Of a stretch of 44,697 nt of DNA, positions 3,034 to 10,077 are shown one piece after another. Every line of letters starts with the position of its first letter. Within the stretch, counting starts at the first letter, position 1. The stretch is from Bdellovibrio sp. GT3. GTDB taxonomy: Bacteria > Bdellovibrionota > Bdellovibrionia > Bdellovibrionales > Bdellovibrionaceae. A program made the position numbers and the translations under genes. The DNA is taken from assembly GCF_037996765.1 (NCBI RefSeq), contig NZ_JBBNAD010000002.1, positions 1-44,697 on the forward strand. The letters are read 5' to 3'. Under the pieces are notes generated by a model. It searched no databases, was not told the origin of the DNA, and saw only the letters and a program-made list of their open reading frames with translations.

Positions 3034-3723
3034 ATGGAAAAAAGTGCCGTCAACGAAATCCCTTTTGCAAATATCTCTGAACAGTATACTGAAGCCCGCC
3101 TGCTTTTGCGTGAGGCTCTGAAGGCCACTGGCAGAGTCTATTTATCTTCACGATTTGACGACCACTTTTTCACTCTTTCAAACAAGGAGCAGCTGGATCT
3201 TCTGCAGGACCTTGAAAGATGGTCCAAGCTTATTCTGGAATTTGTGGCTTCGGGTGGAAATCACAAAAAAACAAAAGATATTTTCCGCTACTATCTGTCG
3301 CGTTTGAACTTCTCGGCTCCCGAGAGTTTTATCAACCAAATTCAGGATGGAGACGTTGTTGAGATTTTCGGCAGCGACAACCGCCGCTTATTTGCGAACC
3401 CTGAGTTGTTTGATTTTTCATCCTATGCGCCGGATGTGATGTTTTCCGGTCAATGGTGGAACTTGTACGAAAGAGATTCTGTCATTTCCGACAAGCTACA
3501 AGAGATCGGGTACGAGACGTTTATGGGATTAAATAAAACAACCCTGAAACCGAACATTCCCACTCATACGGTTAAGGAAATTCGCTCTCAGGGTCGTTAT
3601 GTTTCTGAAGTGCAGATCCGAGCAGTGGCCCCAATTACAATTGGCACCACTGTGGTTGCAGTTGCGGCCTTGGAAACCTTTAGGCTGCTTGAGGGTGCGC
3701 TACCTTTGCACACTCATTCATAA
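3034..3723 (+). CDS. unknown protein with PAS-like segment
   Basis: 229 residues, AGGGAA just before the ATG. It has no signal peptide or membrane segment, so it is cytoplasmic. The N-terminal third is helical. Residues about 105-165 (from DGDVVEIFGSDNRRLFANPE onward) have the look of a PAS-type sensory strand/helix pattern, and the tail is hydrophobic (ITIGTTVVAVAALETFRLLEG). No family is firmly recognised. The 3' end overlaps the convergent HDO gene by 44 bp. Its position beside an acyltransferase, an oxidase-like protein and an XRE regulator suggests a sensor or partner for that module, which is inference only. Confidence 0.6.
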   Translation: MEKSAVNEIPFANISEQYTEARLLLREALKATGRVYLSSRFDDHFFTLSNKEQLDLLQDLERWSKLILEFVASGGNHKKTKDIFRYYLSRLNFSAPESFINQIQDGDVVEIFGSDNRRLFANPELFDFSSYAPDVMFSGQWWNLYERDSVISDKLQEIGYETFMGLNKTTLKPNIPTHTVKEIRSQGRYVSEVQIRAVAPITIGTTVVAVAALETFRLLEGALPLHTHS

Positions 3724-4303
3724 TTCTGTAATAGATTTCCATGGACTCGCACAGATTCTGATAGATATGTGCGCGTTCAAGATCAGTCACCTGATCCACC
3801 GCCTTCAATACATCCTGAAAATGCTCAACGTCCTCTTCGGCGTGAACTTTCAGGAAGGTATAACCTTTAATACCTGCCGCTTTGATTCTGTTTAAAACTT
3901 TTGGACCTGACTTCGCTGCCAATCCTTCAAGGAAAAGCGAGTATCCCAAATGTGACGTAGGACCGACTTCTTTAATCCAATAGTATTGGGTTTTCCAGAA
4001 AACATCGGTAAAGTTGAAAACATGAGAAGATTCACTGCGCATGAACTTCAAATCATTCTTACTCATTTTCTCATGGCCCGCCTCCTCTTCGATATGGTGT
4101 TCGAATTGGGCTTTCAATGGATGACTTTTCGGTAAAAGATCATTGCACATATTCAGGAATGTCGATGTATGCGCAACGAATGCGTTGGTTTGCGCAACCC
4201 ATGAACTGTAAAAGTTAACACTTTCCCACGGCATGGTTTCAATAAAGTTACACATCTCATCTACTTTGGCAGTGGCTTTTGCTCTGAATTCTGCTGGTTT
4301 CAT
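3680..4303 (-). CDS. haem-oxygenase-like diiron oxidase/oxygenase (HDO superfamily)
   Basis: 207 residues from the ATG at 4303 (MKPAEF), reached by AGGAGA in the short gap after the upstream gene. The helical protein carries what reads as a complete HDO metal-ligand set: E74-x2-H77, E126, and H154-x3-D158-x2-H161. These match the pattern of CADD, UndA and related TenA/haem-oxygenase-fold enzymes that bind two irons and activate oxygen. No signal peptide is present. It lies 20 bp downstream of a GNAT-like acyltransferase gene on the same strand, so the two probably form an operon and may act on the same small molecule. Substrate is unknown. It overlaps the convergent gene 3034-3723. Confidence 0.75.
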   Translation of the reverse strand: MKPAEFRAKATAKVDEMCNFIETMPWESVNFYSSWVAQTNAFVAHTSTFLNMCNDLLPKSHPLKAQFEHHIEEEAGHEKMSKNDLKFMRSESSHVFNFTDVFWKTQYYWIKEVGPTSHLGYSLFLEGLAAKSGPKVLNRIKAAGIKGYTFLKVHAEEDVEHFQDVLKAVDQVTDLERAHIYQNLCESMEIYYRIMNECAKVAHPQAA

Positions 4304-4323
4304 AAATTCTCCTGTAATTTGAA

Positions 4324-4974
4324 TTAAGCTGCGATTTTTGAAGTTTGTGGCATACCACCCCAAAGGGCTTCCACTGTCTTTTTGGTGAAATCATCCGCTT
4401 CCCTTGGTGTTTCGTATTTACTCATCACCATGACCGAGCAGAGATTGTTGTATTTGCTGATTTGAGCAATTTCCGTGAATCCGATCAAATCGCCCAGGAA
4501 ATTAACCTTGCGGTCCATACGTGCAATCCCCAGAGCACCTTCGAGATTTAACTCCTTCATGACTTTAAGACCCAAGCGAACGATAAGCTCCGCCACTTTA
4601 GGACCGCCGGCTTCTTTGGTACGGAAGCCCGGGGCTACCGTTAAATACTCCATTGCCAGGAATGAATTGATGTTCTTTTCAAGAAGTTTGGTTTTGGCCT
4701 CTTCAGACATCGCACGAACGTATGAATGATCAAGGCTGCTGCTTTCACGCAAGTCAAAAGGACTGTACAAATGGAATCCAGCGACCTCGTCATCCTTTAG
4801 AACCACCGCAATCACCTTGGCACGCTGAAATTCATCGTGATTAAGTTTTGCTCCACGTGAAGCCAAATCCGCGCCAAACTCACTGGCCCAAAGGTGGTAA
4901 CACTTGTTTACGTAACCGATCTCCTGAGTCGTTTTTGCACCCGTCGTATAGATGAGGCGATATGAAAAGTTCAT
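4324..4974 (-). CDS. GNAT-fold N-acyltransferase, autoinducer-synthase/FeeM-like
   Basis: 216 residues. The centre (about 105-165) has GNAT/LuxI-fold features: a hydrophobic strand AMEYLTVAPGFR, a glycine-containing turn, a long helix AELIVRLGLKVMKELN and a second strand ALGIARMDRKVN followed by LIGF. This layout resembles N-acyl amino acid synthases and AHL-synthase-like proteins more than small acetyltransferases. The protein is cytoplasmic. It is first in a two-gene operon with an HDO enzyme and diverges from an XRE regulator 108 bp away. A product such as an N-acyl amino acid or signal is inferred and could be wrong. Confidence 0.6.
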   Translation of the reverse strand: MNFSYRLIYTTGAKTTQEIGYVNKCYHLWASEFGADLASRGAKLNHDEFQRAKVIAVVLKDDEVAGFHLYSPFDLRESSSLDHSYVRAMSEEAKTKLLEKNINSFLAMEYLTVAPGFRTKEAGGPKVAELIVRLGLKVMKELNLEGALGIARMDRKVNFLGDLIGFTEIAQISKYNNLCSVMVMSKYETPREADDFTKKTVEALWGGMPQTSKIAA

Positions 4975-5000
4975 GTAAATTCCTCTTGGTTTTTAGGTAG

Positions 5001-5065
5001 AAACATTTCCGTGTTTGTATAAACATAAACACGATGATATTTCGGATGTGCACAGAGAAATGTTT
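5001..5065. promoter_or_regulatory. divergent promoter region with nested inverted repeats
   Basis: Between the acyltransferase gene and the XRE gene lie two nested inverted repeats. The inner one is CGTGTTT (5010-5016) with AAACACG (5027-5033). The outer one is AAACATTT (5001-5008) with AAATGTTT (5058-5065). Both arms are perfect. They are well placed to be operators for the adjacent XRE protein. Which repeat is bound is unknown. Confidence 0.5.
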
Positions 5066-5082
5066 AGTGGAGAGATGAGAAA

Positions 5083-5376
5083 ATGAATTCGTACGGTGAA
5101 TTTCTAGCCTATTGCCGAAAAGTCAAAGGTCTGTCTCAGACTCAAGTCGCAGAGATTCTTGGTTACGAATCGGGTCAAATTGTTTCTGATTGGGAATGCA
5201 ACATCTCCCAGCCTCCTATACTTGTCATAGGTGAACTGGCGCGTATCTACGATTCCCCTCGTGAGACGTTTTTCAACTACATCCTAGAGAGACAAATTAG
5301 CGAAATCACAACGAACCATCAAAATGTCTTTACAGAATCAGGAATAATTAAAAAGGCTATGAAATCGCTGCAATAA
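5083..5376 (+). CDS. XRE-family transcriptional regulator
   Basis: 97 residues; the ATG is preceded by GGAGAGATGAG. Residues about 4-60 form a Cro/C1-type helix-turn-helix, with the typical SQTQVAEILGYESGQIVSDWE recognition region followed by a conserved Pro-containing helix. The C-terminus is short and polar, with no obvious ligand domain. It diverges from the acyltransferase-HDO operon across a promoter holding nested inverted repeats, so it probably controls that operon and itself. A weak terminator follows at 5438-5456. Confidence 0.8.
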   Translation: MNSYGEFLAYCRKVKGLSQTQVAEILGYESGQIVSDWECNISQPPILVIGELARIYDSPRETFFNYILERQISEITTNHQNVFTESGIIKKAMKSLQ

Positions 5377-5538: not shown

Positions 5539-7806
5539 ATGGAGCTCGATCGGCTAACCACATGCAAATACTGCCTGAGTCCCTCAAATGGATTCGAGTA
5601 CTGTTGTGAAGCATGCCGGATCTTGAGCACCCAAATGGGTTTCTTAAATCTTTCTGATAAGAATCCCTTTGCCTATCTGGACCAACCCGAATTTCAAATC
5701 CAGTACAAACAAAGTATCGACAAAGGATATGACTATCTGATTTTTTGCGAGGGCATGCACTGTTCTTCCTGTGTGCACTTGATTGAAAAACTCACGGAGT
5801 ACTGTCCTGGAGTTTCAGAAGCACGTGTCAACTTTGGACAATCCACGGTGGCGGTGACACTTGCACCCGAGGGCTCTTTAGCAAAGGTGGCTCAGGCAAT
5901 TTCGGAATTGGGCTACACTCCCCGACTAATTGGCACAGCTGATAATATTCAGGATAAATACACTCAGGAAAACAGAACATTCTTAAAACGCATTGCGGTC
6001 GCAGGTTTCTGTGCTGGCAATATAATGTTATTCACGATTCCCATATATGCAGGACTTTCCGGTGTGTGGGAAAAAGCTTTTAATGCTGTTGGACTTTTGC
6101 TGTTTTTGCCAGTCTTGTTGTACAGTGCTCAACCGTTTTATCATGGCACCCTGAATGCACTAAAATTTCGCACCATGAATGTGGACTTGCCGATTACCAT
6201 CGCCATGTTGAGTGGATTCTCTCTTTCCACTTGGAACTTCATTAACGGCAAGGGTGACATTTACTACGACAGCACCGCAAGTTTTCTGTTTCTAATCCTC
6301 AGCGCACGCTATCTGCTGAAAAGAGTGCAGCAAAACTATCTGGCTCCTGCACGCATGGAAACCTACTTCAAGGATCAAATCTACGAGTGCATGAATAACG
6401 ATACCTCCAGATTGATTCCATGGAATCTTATACGACCTGATGACATTATCCGCATCAGATCAGGACAGACTCTCCCGACTGACTGTGAACTCTTGGGCGA
6501 ATGCGCCACGGTGGATTCTTCCCTGTTCAATGGTGAATCTGTACCACAAGTTTATTCCCAAGGGATGCAGCTTCTCGGAGGAACGAAACTTCTAAGCAGT
6601 CCTGTTCTGATGCAGGCAAAGGTCTCTTTTGAGAAAAGCAAAATAGGTCAGCTATTTCAGGATTTGGATCAGAAGAGTTATCAAAAAAGTCATTTCGTGG
6701 GGCTTACGGAGCGTCTGGCTCAGCATTTGATAGTTGGTGTCTTTTCGTTGGCAGCGGTTTTTGCGATTGGATACTCCTTCGTGGATCTGACAGTGGCACT
6801 ACAAAGAGCCCTGGCTTTGATTGTCATTGCGTGTCCTTGCGCACTGGCATTTGGATCTCCTTTAACCTTGGGACTTGCTTTAAAGAAAGCTCAGAAAAAA
6901 GGAATTTTAATTAAAAGTTCAAATGTCTTTGAGAAGGTTTTGGAAATCAAGAATGTCTTTTTTGATAAAACTGGAACACTGACAACGGGAAATTTAAGCC
7001 TTACCCAGAGCGTGCCGACAGATCTTTCCGCTAATTTAAAGTCCATCATTCTTGGACTGGAGTCGTCGTCTCAACACCCTATCGCATTTGCAATTCGTCA
7101 AGCATGGGCTGACACCACTCCTTCCAACAGTATCACCGATTTGGGTGAGATTATAGGCTATGGAGTAAAAGGTCAGGTTAGTGGTGACCAATACGAAATC
7201 AGCACGGCGCAAGTAACCCACGCAAACTCTCAAATGGTCATTCAGGTTCAAAAAAATGGAATGACTGTATGCCACCTCTTCTTTGAAGACCGTTTGCGCG
7301 ATGAGGCACCCGCAATTATCAAAAGACTTCACGCAAAAGGCATTCAAACGTTTTTACTCTCTGGTGACTCGAATGCAAGAGCCAAAGAGGTTGCCCAAAA
7401 ATGTTTCATTCCAAATGAAAACGCGTTGGGAGAAATGTCTCCTGAGGGAAAATTTGAATTTTTAAAGATCCACGACCATACATGCATGATCGGTGATGGC
7501 GCCAACGATTCATTGTCATTAAAAAATGCCTCTGTCGGTATTGCTGTCAAAGGCAGCGTCGACCTGAGTCTGCAATATGCAGATGTTTACTTCACCCGAG
7601 GCGGATTGAACCCCTTACTGGACCTCTTTGCCTTGGCTGAGAGAACTCGCAAGGTTCTTACCAGAACTTTAACTGTGTCGTTAATTTATAACTTGCTGGG
7701 CGGAGCTGCCGCATTGTTGGGGTTTATTGATCCAATGATGGCGGCAATTCTGATGCCGATCAGCTCGGTGCTGATTGTACTCACCTCACTTTGGGGGATG
7801 AGATGA
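5539..7806 (+). CDS. ccoI: copper-transporting P-type ATPase for cbb3 oxidase assembly
   Basis: 755 residues. N-terminal Cys-rich metal-binding segment (CKYC, CCEAC), then an HMA-like domain with CSSC at 75-78, eight expected membrane helices, the CPC metal-transport motif at 432-434, the phosphorylation motif DKTGT at 476-480 and the hinge GDGANDS. The N-terminal extra domain plus CPC is typical of CcoI/FixI. The enzyme exports Cu(I) across the inner membrane for the binuclear centre of cbb3 oxidase. It begins an operon in which every junction overlaps; its stop overlaps the ccoS start by 4 bp. The ATG follows TAGGAGA. Confidence 0.95.
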   Translation: MELDRLTTCKYCLSPSNGFEYCCEACRILSTQMGFLNLSDKNPFAYLDQPEFQIQYKQSIDKGYDYLIFCEGMHCSSCVHLIEKLTEYCPGVSEARVNFGQSTVAVTLAPEGSLAKVAQAISELGYTPRLIGTADNIQDKYTQENRTFLKRIAVAGFCAGNIMLFTIPIYAGLSGVWEKAFNAVGLLLFLPVLLYSAQPFYHGTLNALKFRTMNVDLPITIAMLSGFSLSTWNFINGKGDIYYDSTASFLFLILSARYLLKRVQQNYLAPARMETYFKDQIYECMNNDTSRLIPWNLIRPDDIIRIRSGQTLPTDCELLGECATVDSSLFNGESVPQVYSQGMQLLGGTKLLSSPVLMQAKVSFEKSKIGQLFQDLDQKSYQKSHFVGLTERLAQHLIVGVFSLAAVFAIGYSFVDLTVALQRALALIVIACPCALAFGSPLTLGLALKKAQKKGILIKSSNVFEKVLEIKNVFFDKTGTLTTGNLSLTQSVPTDLSANLKSIILGLESSSQHPIAFAIRQAWADTTPSNSITDLGEIIGYGVKGQVSGDQYEISTAQVTHANSQMVIQVQKNGMTVCHLFFEDRLRDEAPAIIKRLHAKGIQTFLLSGDSNARAKEVAQKCFIPNENALGEMSPEGKFEFLKIHDHTCMIGDGANDSLSLKNASVGIAVKGSVDLSLQYADVYFTRGGLNPLLDLFALAERTRKVLTRTLTVSLIYNLLGGAAALLGFIDPMMAAILMPISSVLIVLTSLWGMR

Positions 7807-7970
7807 ATATTTTAATACTTATGATTCCGATGGCTTTACTACTGGGCGCAGGTTTCCTGTACTCATTTTTTTGGGCGAACTCCAAAGGTCAGTTCGATGA
7901 TCTGGAAACTCCCGCCCACCGCATGCTTTTGGATGAAAACGAAAGGACTGAACGTGAACACATCAAATAA
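7803..7970 (+). CDS. ccoS: cbb3 oxidase maturation protein CcoS
   Basis: 55 residues, easily overlooked because it is so short. One N-terminal membrane helix (MNILILMIPMALLLGAGFLY) is followed by SFFWANSKGQFDDLETPAHR, the family signature F-W-x4-GQ(F/Y)DDLE-P. CcoS is needed for cofactor insertion into cbb3 oxidase. It overlaps ccoI by 4 bp at its start and ccoNO by 17 bp at its end, implying translational coupling. Confidence 0.93.
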   Translation: MNILILMIPMALLLGAGFLYSFFWANSKGQFDDLETPAHRMLLDENERTEREHIK

Positions 7971-10077
7971 GGTTGTAGAGAAAATTATCTACGACGACGA
8001 CATCGTAAAGAAATTCGCGATAGCCACCATGGTCTGGGCTGTGGCGGCATTTCTTTTCGGCTTGATCGCAGCCATTCAAATTCCATGGTGGCCAGCCAAC
8101 ATGAATATGGAATGGCTTACTTTCGGCAGACTGCGCCCCTTACACACCAACGCGGCAATTTTTGCTTTTGGTGGTAATGCGATCTTCGCCGGGATTTACC
8201 ACTCATCCCAAAGACTTCTAAAAACACGCATGTTCTCAGACACCCTTTCAGCCATTCACTTCTGGGGCTGGCAACTTATTATCGTCGCGGCAGCGATCAC
8301 TTTACCACTGGGATACTCCCAGGCGAAAGAATACGCAGAGCTGGAGTGGCCGATTGACATTGCGATCGCCGTCATCTGGGTTGTTTTTGCGGTAAATTTC
8401 TTCATGACGATTCACCGTCGTCGTGAAAAGCATCTTTACGTGGCGTTGTGGTTTTATATCTCAACAATAATCACGGTGGCAGTTTTGCATATTGTGAATT
8501 CAATCGAGATCCCGGTGGCCTTCATGAAGTCTTATCCGGTGTACGCAGGTATCCAGGACGCCCTGGTACAGTGGTGGTACGGACATAATGCCGTGGCCTT
8601 TTTCCTGACAACCCCGTTTTTGGGTTTGATGTACTACTATATCCCCAAAGCCGCCAATCGCCCGGTTTACTCTTACCGTCTGTCTATTATTCACTTTTGG
8701 TCCTTGGTGTTCATCTATATCTGGGCTGGCCCCCATCACTTGCTATACACCTCTTTGCCAGAATGGGCTCAAACATTAGGGATGATTTTCTCCGTGATGC
8801 TTCTGGCTCCTTCATGGGGCGGAATGATCAATGGCCTTTTGACTTTAAAAGGTTCGTGGAACTTGCTTCGTACAGAACCGCTTCTTAAGTTCTTTGTGGC
8901 GGCTTTGACTTTCTATGGTATGGCGACATTTGAAGGACCACTTCTTTCCATTAAATCCGTGAGCGCATTAGGACACTATACTGATTGGATTGTTGGTCAC
9001 GTGCACGGGGGGACCTTGGGTTGGAATGGCTTCCTGACATTCGGGATGCTTTACTATATGGTTCCACGTCTTTGGAAAACGCAGCTTTACTCCAAGAAAC
9101 TTTTGGAGAATCACTTTTGGTTGGGTCTTGCCGGCGTCATTCTGTACTACGTTTCGATGGTCGTTGCCGGTATCACTCAAGGTTCGATGTGGAGAGCTGT
9201 CACCAAAGAAGGCACGCTGGTTTACCCTGACTTCATGGAGACAGTTGTGCGCATTGTTCCTCTTTACTGGGCCCGTGCCTTGGGCGGAACACTCTTCCTG
9301 ATTGGCTTCCTGTTGATGTGCTACAACATCTATAAAACAATCAAACTGGCTCCACCAAAAGTCAAAGAGGACGTGGTTGAGGTAACCAGAACTGGCTATA
9401 GTGAGATTTATACTTCAGACCATAGAAAACTGGAAGGCATGGGGTTTGTATTCTCTGTGCTGGCCTTCCTGGCAATAGCCGTTGGTTCATTCATTGAAAT
9501 TTACCCGACTCTTTCTCTTCATAAATACATCAATCCGGCTCAAATCACAGATCCGTACACGCCCCTTGAAATTGCAGGTCGCAGTATTTACATTCGCGAA
9601 GGATGTTATGTCTGTCACTCACAACAAATCCGCCCGATTGTTTCTGAAGTATTACGTTACGGACCCGCTTCCACAATTGAAGAATCCATGTGGGATCGTC
9701 CGTTCCAATGGGGATCAAAACGGACAGGACCGGATCTTGCCCGCGTTGGCAAAAAGTATCCGAACCTATGGCACTTCAGCCATATGATGGACCCGCGCGC
9801 CGTCACTCCAAGCAGCATCATGCCAAACTATCCATGGCTGGCAGATAAAGACACGAACTTCATGCGTCTACGCAAAGAAGTCTCTGTCATGAAGCTTTTA
9901 GGTGTGCCTTATGATGACAACACTGCCGCAAATGCAGATGGCATCGCCCAGAAGCAGGCAAAGGAAATCGCTGCAGACATAGAAGCAAACGGTGGTCCCC
10001 GTGGAATGGAGAAAAAGGAAATCGTGGCTTTGATCGCCTACCTGCAATCCTTGGGTCAGAAAGGAAAAGCTCAATGA
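7954..10077 (+). CDS. ccoNO: cbb3-type cytochrome c oxidase, fused subunits I and II (CcoN-CcoO)
   Basis: 707 residues from the GTG at 7954, chosen because AAGGA lies six bases ahead; an in-frame ATG at 7933 is less well placed. Residues about 1-470 are CcoN: twelve membrane helices with the expected His-rich haem/copper loops (for example RPLHTNAAIFAFGGNA, WYGHNAVAFFLT, GPHHLLYT, HVHGGTLGWNG). After a linker and one membrane anchor comes CcoO with the haem c motif CYVCH at 551-555 and a Met ligand region SSIMPNYPW. The two are separate genes in most bacteria. The protein is the catalytic core that reduces O2 with high affinity. It overlaps ccoS and ccoQ. Confidence 0.95.
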   Translation: MNTSNKVVEKIIYDDDIVKKFAIATMVWAVAAFLFGLIAAIQIPWWPANMNMEWLTFGRLRPLHTNAAIFAFGGNAIFAGIYHSSQRLLKTRMFSDTLSAIHFWGWQLIIVAAAITLPLGYSQAKEYAELEWPIDIAIAVIWVVFAVNFFMTIHRRREKHLYVALWFYISTIITVAVLHIVNSIEIPVAFMKSYPVYAGIQDALVQWWYGHNAVAFFLTTPFLGLMYYYIPKAANRPVYSYRLSIIHFWSLVFIYIWAGPHHLLYTSLPEWAQTLGMIFSVMLLAPSWGGMINGLLTLKGSWNLLRTEPLLKFFVAALTFYGMATFEGPLLSIKSVSALGHYTDWIVGHVHGGTLGWNGFLTFGMLYYMVPRLWKTQLYSKKLLENHFWLGLAGVILYYVSMVVAGITQGSMWRAVTKEGTLVYPDFMETVVRIVPLYWARALGGTLFLIGFLLMCYNIYKTIKLAPPKVKEDVVEVTRTGYSEIYTSDHRKLEGMGFVFSVLAFLAIAVGSFIEIYPTLSLHKYINPAQITDPYTPLEIAGRSIYIREGCYVCHSQQIRPIVSEVLRYGPASTIEESMWDRPFQWGSKRTGPDLARVGKKYPNLWHFSHMMDPRAVTPSSIMPNYPWLADKDTNFMRLRKEVSVMKLLGVPYDDNTAANADGIAQKQAKEIAADIEANGGPRGMEKKEIVALIAYLQSLGQKGKAQ

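Follow-up and report, generated by a model that had tools for sequence, protein, structure and literature searches.

Four genes at positions 3034–5376 of a Bdellovibrio sp. GT3 contig form what we judge, with a probability of roughly 58%, to be a compact and modular unit for the synthesis of and response to an N-acyl small molecule, resembling LuxI/LuxR in plan but made of other parts: a GNAT-fold acyltransferase, a haem-oxygenase-fold diiron oxidase (HDO) and a receptor probably split between a PAS-like protein and an XRE-family regulator. Both a signal and a self-inducing metabolite fall within this reading. The window analysed here is the entire 44.7-kb contig (G000:C2) of this Bdellovibrio-type genome; L-numbers denote loci and G-numbers genomes with their contig C-numbers, whilst family, class and phylum are those of the host.

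Gene set and predicted folds

The open reading frame list contains four intact frames in the interval, and the gene set is confirmed as real in the arrangement given by an earlier description made from the DNA letters (the original prediction), with the XRE gene diverging from a two-gene GNAT-HDO operon and the PAS-like gene convergent on it.

3034–3723, plus strand: PAS-like, sensor-like gene, 229 aa, with an N-terminal helical region (residues ~11–100) and a C-terminal PAS region (~104–219)
3680–4303, minus strand: HDO, 207 aa, starting at the ATG after an AGGAG site
4324–4974, minus strand: GNAT-fold acyltransferase, 216 aa, first gene of the operon
5083–5376, plus strand: XRE-family regulator, 97 aa, divergent from the GNAT-HDO operon
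3680–3723, unstranded: convergent 3′ ends of the sensor-like gene and HDO, overlapping by 44 bp in the frame coordinates

GNAT and HDO are separated by 20 bp and a purine-rich ribosome site precedes each gene. Overlapping 3′ ends recur in 27 of 47 adjacent convergent sensor/enzyme pairs, against 20 of 80 other convergent pairs.

For both the GNAT and the PAS-like protein, no Pfam family passed its cut-off and sequence searches of Pfam, NCBIfam and the PDB yielded nothing usable; the PAS-like protein had no Pfam PAS match, with one of its 36 relatives matching at E 0.05, and so both labels rested on structure prediction. The AlphaFold (AF2) model of the GNAT, built from seven sequences (predicted local distance difference test, pLDDT, 88.2; predicted template-modelling score, pTM, 0.85), was compared with known folds by VIA-align. 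Its top matches were RpaI (Z 16.8, 194 residues), BjaI (Z 16.2, 190 residues) and FeeM (structure 2g0b; Z 16.2, root-mean-square deviation 3.1, 172 of 188 residues aligned); generic GNATs scored up to Z 15.7 with ~133–173 residues aligned, and the ribosomal-protein acetylase RimI reached Z 14.8 over 138 residues. As the gap in Z is small (16.8 versus 14.8 for RimI), the argument rests on aligned coverage, and a RimI-type protein acetylase is disfavoured by that coverage (138 versus 190+ residues), not by Z alone. The model points to a near-full-length fold of the acyl-homoserine lactone (AHL) synthases, though not an exclusive one given the generic GNATs at up to Z 15.7, and hence to a protein with the predicted fold of an acyl-signal synthase which lies outside the LuxI and FeeM families by profile test. 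The proposed resemblance to N-acyl signal synthases is thereby borne out by fold, with RpaI, BjaI and FeeM ranking first over 172–194 residues, and the model did not fall into an unrelated family such as the ribosomal-protein acetylases, which the original prediction had named as an outcome that would speak against it.

The HDO passes the PF14518 profile (30.9 bits against a cut-off of 28.9), and a profile search matches the structural-genomics entry 3dde (E 5.7e-22), MboA (E 5.5e-10), BesC and CADD, with which it has in common the fold profile and all six ligands of a 3-His/3-carboxylate set, the one reported for MboA and most HDOs (PMC13185094). It differs from these proteins in being partnered with, or fused to, a LuxI/FeeM-like GNAT and accompanied by a sensor. 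The candidate metal ligands listed in the original prediction (E74, H77, E126, H154, D158 and H161) were correct to the residue: all six are invariant in a 33-sequence alignment (E75, H78, E129, H158, D162 and H165 in its first sequence) and each is kept in 63–64 of 64 relatives, so that the feared loss of ligands in homologues did not materialise. The window protein is an HDO family member with a complete predicted diiron ligand set.

In the AF2 model of the PAS-like protein (pLDDT 85.3, pTM 0.81), residues 104–219 match PAS structures at Z 9.6–11.1, including BMAL1 PAS-B at 10.9 and LOV proteins at ~10, and this fold upholds its description as a cytoplasmic PAS-like protein. It consists of helices and PAS only, with no helix-turn-helix (HTH) or other DNA-binding part and no membrane segment, and Y131, R147 and E182 are nearly invariant. 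LuxR autoinducer-binding structures were not among the fold matches listed, which excludes nothing.

Linkage and enzyme exchange across the class

We searched for GNAT and HDO independently with profiles in 144 class genomes and then compared their positions. GNAT was found in 94 genomes, HDO in 94 and the sensor in 96; a single-sequence search of 66 family genomes found HDO in 53 and GNAT in 38, and across the phylum GNAT is present in 135 of 369 genomes. Of 124 GNAT loci, 98 have an HDO within 2 kb, on the same strand in 93 cases and with a median gap of 40 bp, and in two genomes (L170, L171) the two enzymes form a single open frame. For detailed reading 82 loci were fetched, which hold 79 GNAT genes, and sensors were scored within 3.5 kb. 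A PAS-like gene is near 71 of the 79, mostly in convergent orientation and on the opposite strand in 58, and sensor distances correlate with GNAT distances (Mantel r 0.36, p 0.001). An XRE homologue is near 43 of the 79 GNAT genes, and at 27 loci it adjoins the sensor gene and shares its strand, an arrangement expected of two halves of one receptor. Conserved linkage, the absence of which would have told against the module, spans the class and reaches the phylum; the expectation that both the XRE and PAS-like genes stay linked held well for the PAS-like gene and more weakly for the XRE.

Close relatives of both window enzymes occur in just three further species of the genus (57–72% identity), which marks the window version as an accessory copy, and a second, core GNAT-HDO pair lies at C5:17626–18986 of the host genome. 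The whole four-gene module is also found, diverged, on plasmid pBdHM1 of Bdellovibrio sp. HM001 (AP029175.1), where all four genes are annotated as hypothetical. The host genome encodes five sensor-like genes against two synthases, and these surplus sensors without a synthase recall LuxR solos. Orphan sensor genes occur at L205 and L206 (both G000), L196 (G088) and G019:C113:82–2171, sometimes two or three in tandem.

Whilst synthase and sensor are kept, the enzyme beside the GNAT is exchanged. A fatty acid (membrane) desaturase replaces HDO at L096 (twice), L183, L194 and L200, a desaturase with an acyl-CoA dehydrogenase at L191, an S-adenosylmethionine (SAM) methyltransferase at L094 and a FAD_binding_4 oxidase at L180 and L182; at L172 (4565–6877) the GNAT is fused to a vanillyl-alcohol oxidase (VAO)-type FAD-linked oxidase, a FAD_binding_4 relative, in one 770-aa frame. 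Elsewhere a desaturase accompanies HDO (L075, L080, L093, L095). According to the MboA paper, membrane desaturase-like acetylenases are the sole other family known to carry out an MboA-like reaction (PMC13185094), which makes the swap between HDO and desaturase chemically sensible. What these loci would have in common is an acyl product whose tailoring varies, and this fits either a diversifying signal or a bioactive metabolite.

HDO has further partners. At seven HDO loci without the module GNAT (G038:C9, G073:C21, G071:C144, G118:C126, G110:C79, G088:C188 and G032:C171) a FeeM-family (PF21926) protein lies within ~1.1 kb, a second association of an acyl synthase with HDO in the class. PF21926 proteins are strongly expanded in some class genomes, for example G101 (10 matches) and G108 (8), often as frames of ~410–450 aa; the only match in the host genome lies away from the module (C5:855279). 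Another recurring partnership is seen on Vibrio and Citrobacter plasmids (L210 2844–6995, L211 2916–7082) in an operon for T_hemolysin (PF12261), an AMP ligase, HDO, a short-chain dehydrogenase/reductase (SDR) and a small protein. This operon is like the module in being short and in placing a PF14518 HDO two genes after a similar-sized (215 aa) protein, and unlike it in having the AMP ligase and SDR and no PAS sensor. Since hhalign detected no similarity between the T_hemolysin protein and the GNAT profile, homology of the two is not claimed.

To the left of the module, at 525–2889 of the window, are three genes of 127, 121 and 454 aa, the longest of them lipoprotein-like; they adjoin the module at L063 and L064 as well, so the module may move as part of a larger block. 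To the right (5539–10077) the neighbours look ordinary: a P-type metal-transport ATPase and a fused cbb3-type cytochrome oxidase subunit.

Predicted operators, promoter and protein tails

The XRE regulator passes Pfam HTH_3 (27.2 bits against a cut-off of 23). Between it and the operon, and at the ends of both enzyme genes, are the following features.

5001–5009, unstranded: left arm AAACATTTC of an outer inverted repeat, an exact 9-mer
5057–5065, unstranded: right arm GAAATGTTT, overlapping the predicted −35 box
5010–5033, unstranded: inner operator-like imperfect palindrome CGTGTTTGTATAAACATAAACACG from a palindrome scan, near the predicted transcription start of the operon
5040–5066, minus strand: FliA (sigma-28)-like promoter for GNAT-HDO, with −35 TAAAC at 5062–5066, N16 and −10 CCGAAA at 5040–5045
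4327–4332, minus strand: C-terminal Ala-Ala codons of GNAT (protein end SKIAA), a possible degron
3683–3688, minus strand: C-terminal Ala-Ala codons of HDO (protein end HPQAA), a possible degron

An exact 9-bp inverted repeat arose in 2% of shuffles, AAACA/TGTTT half-sites number five in 108 bp where 0.38 are expected (p ~1e-4), and the core 12-mer of the inner palindrome, GTTTGTATAAAC (GTTTATACAAAC on the opposite strand), is kept in L063 and L064. The nested repeats are beyond chance, and the operators anticipated at this position by the original prediction are sustained as predicted operators.

The attack-phase promoter consensus of B. bacteriovorus is TTAAG-N16-CCGATA (PMC3627812). A score of at least 8/11 to this consensus was found upstream of 22 of 75 GNAT genes and 51 of 626 other genes (p 8.6e-7, a value inflated, like those for the tails below, by kinship among loci), and a score of at least 7.5 upstream of 26 GNAT genes against a shuffle mean of 5.3. 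The strict E. coli sigma-28 consensus gave a weaker GNAT enrichment than the published Bdellovibrio one, the sensor and XRE genes had no FliA-type enrichment in the same scan, and the motif recurs at distant loci such as L101, L173, L176 and L129. GNAT genes therefore appear, from motif scores, to be enriched for predicted attack-phase FliA-type promoters, which is new here.

The two enzymes also share a C-terminal -AA ending, likewise new here and found in 36 of 77 GNATs, 33 of 64 HDOs, 6 of 15 desaturases and 2 of 3 methyltransferases, compared with 17 of 624 other genes (Fisher p ~1e-26 for GNAT and for HDO, each, relatedness ignored). It is rare in the non-enzymes (sensor 1/83, XRE 0/49), and the GNAT tail is disordered in the AF2 model, with residues 211–216 at pLDDT <50. 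The shared ending resembles an ssrA/ClpXP-type degron and may mark the enzymes for degradation, in which case a whole biosynthetic operon may have a single degradation tag in common.

The proposed circuit and its alternatives

In the circuit that we propose, the GNAT would couple an acyl group, from acyl-CoA or acyl carrier protein (acyl-ACP), to an amine or amino acid, as its fold suggests, and the HDO, or elsewhere a desaturase, FAD oxidase, acyl-CoA dehydrogenase or methyltransferase, would tailor the acyl or amino part and so set the identity of the product; the interchange of enzymes is observed, the chemistry presumed. The PAS protein would then bind the product and relay its state to the XRE regulator, whose targets would be the nested operators that overlie the GNAT-HDO promoter; here fold, linkage and operator-like repeats are observed, whilst binding and its direction are conjectured. 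FliA-type RNA polymerase may turn the operon on in the free-swimming attack phase, if the promoter motif is a guide, and the observed -AA tails could clear the enzymes to leave a short pulse. The likeliest role would be kin or density signalling among predators. The make, oxidise and sense circuit of the original prediction is supported in its parts, their linkage, the folds and the metal ligands, and we infer the remainder: the substrate, the product as a signal, its secretion, its binding by PAS, and the partnership and output of the XRE.

The module compares with LuxI/LuxR systems (RpaI and BjaI being CoA-dependent synthases) in having a GNAT-fold acyl synthase, matched across 190–194 residues, a convergent gene for a cytoplasmic protein like a ligand domain, and orphan receptors. 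It differs in having no PF00765 or PF03472 match and a tightly linked oxidase, and in carrying the sensor domain (PAS-like) and HTH (XRE) on separate proteins, where LuxR does not. The surveyed genomes are almost devoid of canonical LuxI and LuxR domains: LuxI (PF00765) is in only 2 of 144 class genomes and not in the host genome, and the LuxR ligand domain Autoind_bind (PF03472) is in none of 66 family genomes. With FeeM/NasY the module shares the GNAT fold and partner enzymes, which in those systems add double bonds or methyl groups (PMC12479983), but its GNATs have no PF21926 match, the true PF21926 proteins of the class being at other loci, its oxidase is an HDO where theirs is a nitroreductase, and it has a linked PAS sensor. 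In the open-licence literature we found no description of an HDO-GNAT signal module and no report of LuxI/LuxR-like signalling of Bdellovibrio's own; work on its signalling concerns the effects of other bacteria's signals upon it (PMC8461301).

Several observations weigh against a synthesis-and-response unit. The Z-scores of the AHL synthases top those of generic GNATs by just 1–2 units, the window GNAT and its 36 relatives have no LuxI (PF00765) profile match, and none of the 37 GNAT members matches FeeM (PF21926) at E 0.1. XRE was not found near 36 of 79 GNAT genes, so that some modules may have another output, and the window FliA-like site fits 8 of 11 positions, which makes it no strong promoter. 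The correlation of GNAT with sensor distances is barely above that with HDO (r 0.36 versus 0.30), and nearest neighbours agree in 23 of 56 cases, so that the distances single out no specific match of synthase and sensor. The core pair of the host genome has no adjoining sensor (L062), nor is a sensor near the GNAT-HDO pairs at L100 and L185. Such sensorless loci would suit a non-signal N-acyl natural product or a membrane or surface lipid (a prey-directed bioactive, surfactant or membrane modifier), controlled locally by the PAS protein and XRE in response to redox, light, oxygen or product. N-acyl amino acid synthases elsewhere adjoin oxidoreductases or methyltransferases and yield bioactive N-acyl (dehydro)tyrosines (PMC12479983), the nearest HDO relatives found in Gammaproteobacteria sit in the sensorless T_hemolysin/AMP-ligase/HDO/SDR operons, and PAS domains are often cofactor sensors. 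Against such a product, clustering of the neighbouring genes brought out no recurrent dedicated exporter or structural partner; the gene most constantly found near the GNAT is that of the PAS protein (71/79), which has also multiplied as orphan copies; and the short enzyme lifetime suggested by the -AA tails suits a pulse over a bulk lipid. We regard this explanation as unlikely, though it deserves to be taken seriously, and the chief alternative to a signal is a self-inducing metabolite without a signalling role.

GNAT toxins paired with small DNA-binding antitoxins exist, and the adjacent XRE and the plasmid copy could be taken for a toxin-antitoxin or defence pair with acquired neighbours. 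This we reject as very improbable from gene order and fusions, with no search made against a defence-system library: the XRE gene points away from the operon and has no homologue near 36 of 79 GNAT genes, the GNAT shares the strand of HDO at 93 of the 98 loci where the two are linked and forms one frame with it in two genomes, its coupling is to metabolic oxidases, and its best fold matches are small-molecule acyl synthases. Generic GNATs at up to Z 15.7 would allow chance neighbours with housekeeping roles (a protein acetylase, an HDO of folate or other metabolism and a generic PAS protein), an idea more improbable still, contradicted as it is by linkage in many genera, by the fusions, and by the shared tails and promoter type.

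Within the synthesis-and-response reading, a bolder and tentative proposal, which we hold possible but somewhat doubtful, is that the module represents an undescribed type of quorum sensing in the Bdellovibrionota, with a LuxI/FeeM-fold synthase that belongs to neither family, tailoring by interchangeable diiron or flavin oxidases and by methyltransferases which would diversify the signal, a split PAS and XRE receptor replacing LuxR, attack-phase FliA control and a shared degron by which the synthetic enzymes would all be removed at once. The pairing of an acyl synthase with HDO, with its natural oxidase swaps, would be new and useful for learning the functions of HDOs. The module is widely conserved in Bdellovibrio-type predators yet undescribed, and as a synthase-oxidase-sensor set that is often multi-copy and sometimes plasmid-borne, it makes predator-predator communication directly testable. 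If the proposal is true, predators of the Bdellovibrio type would have their own kind of chemical communication.

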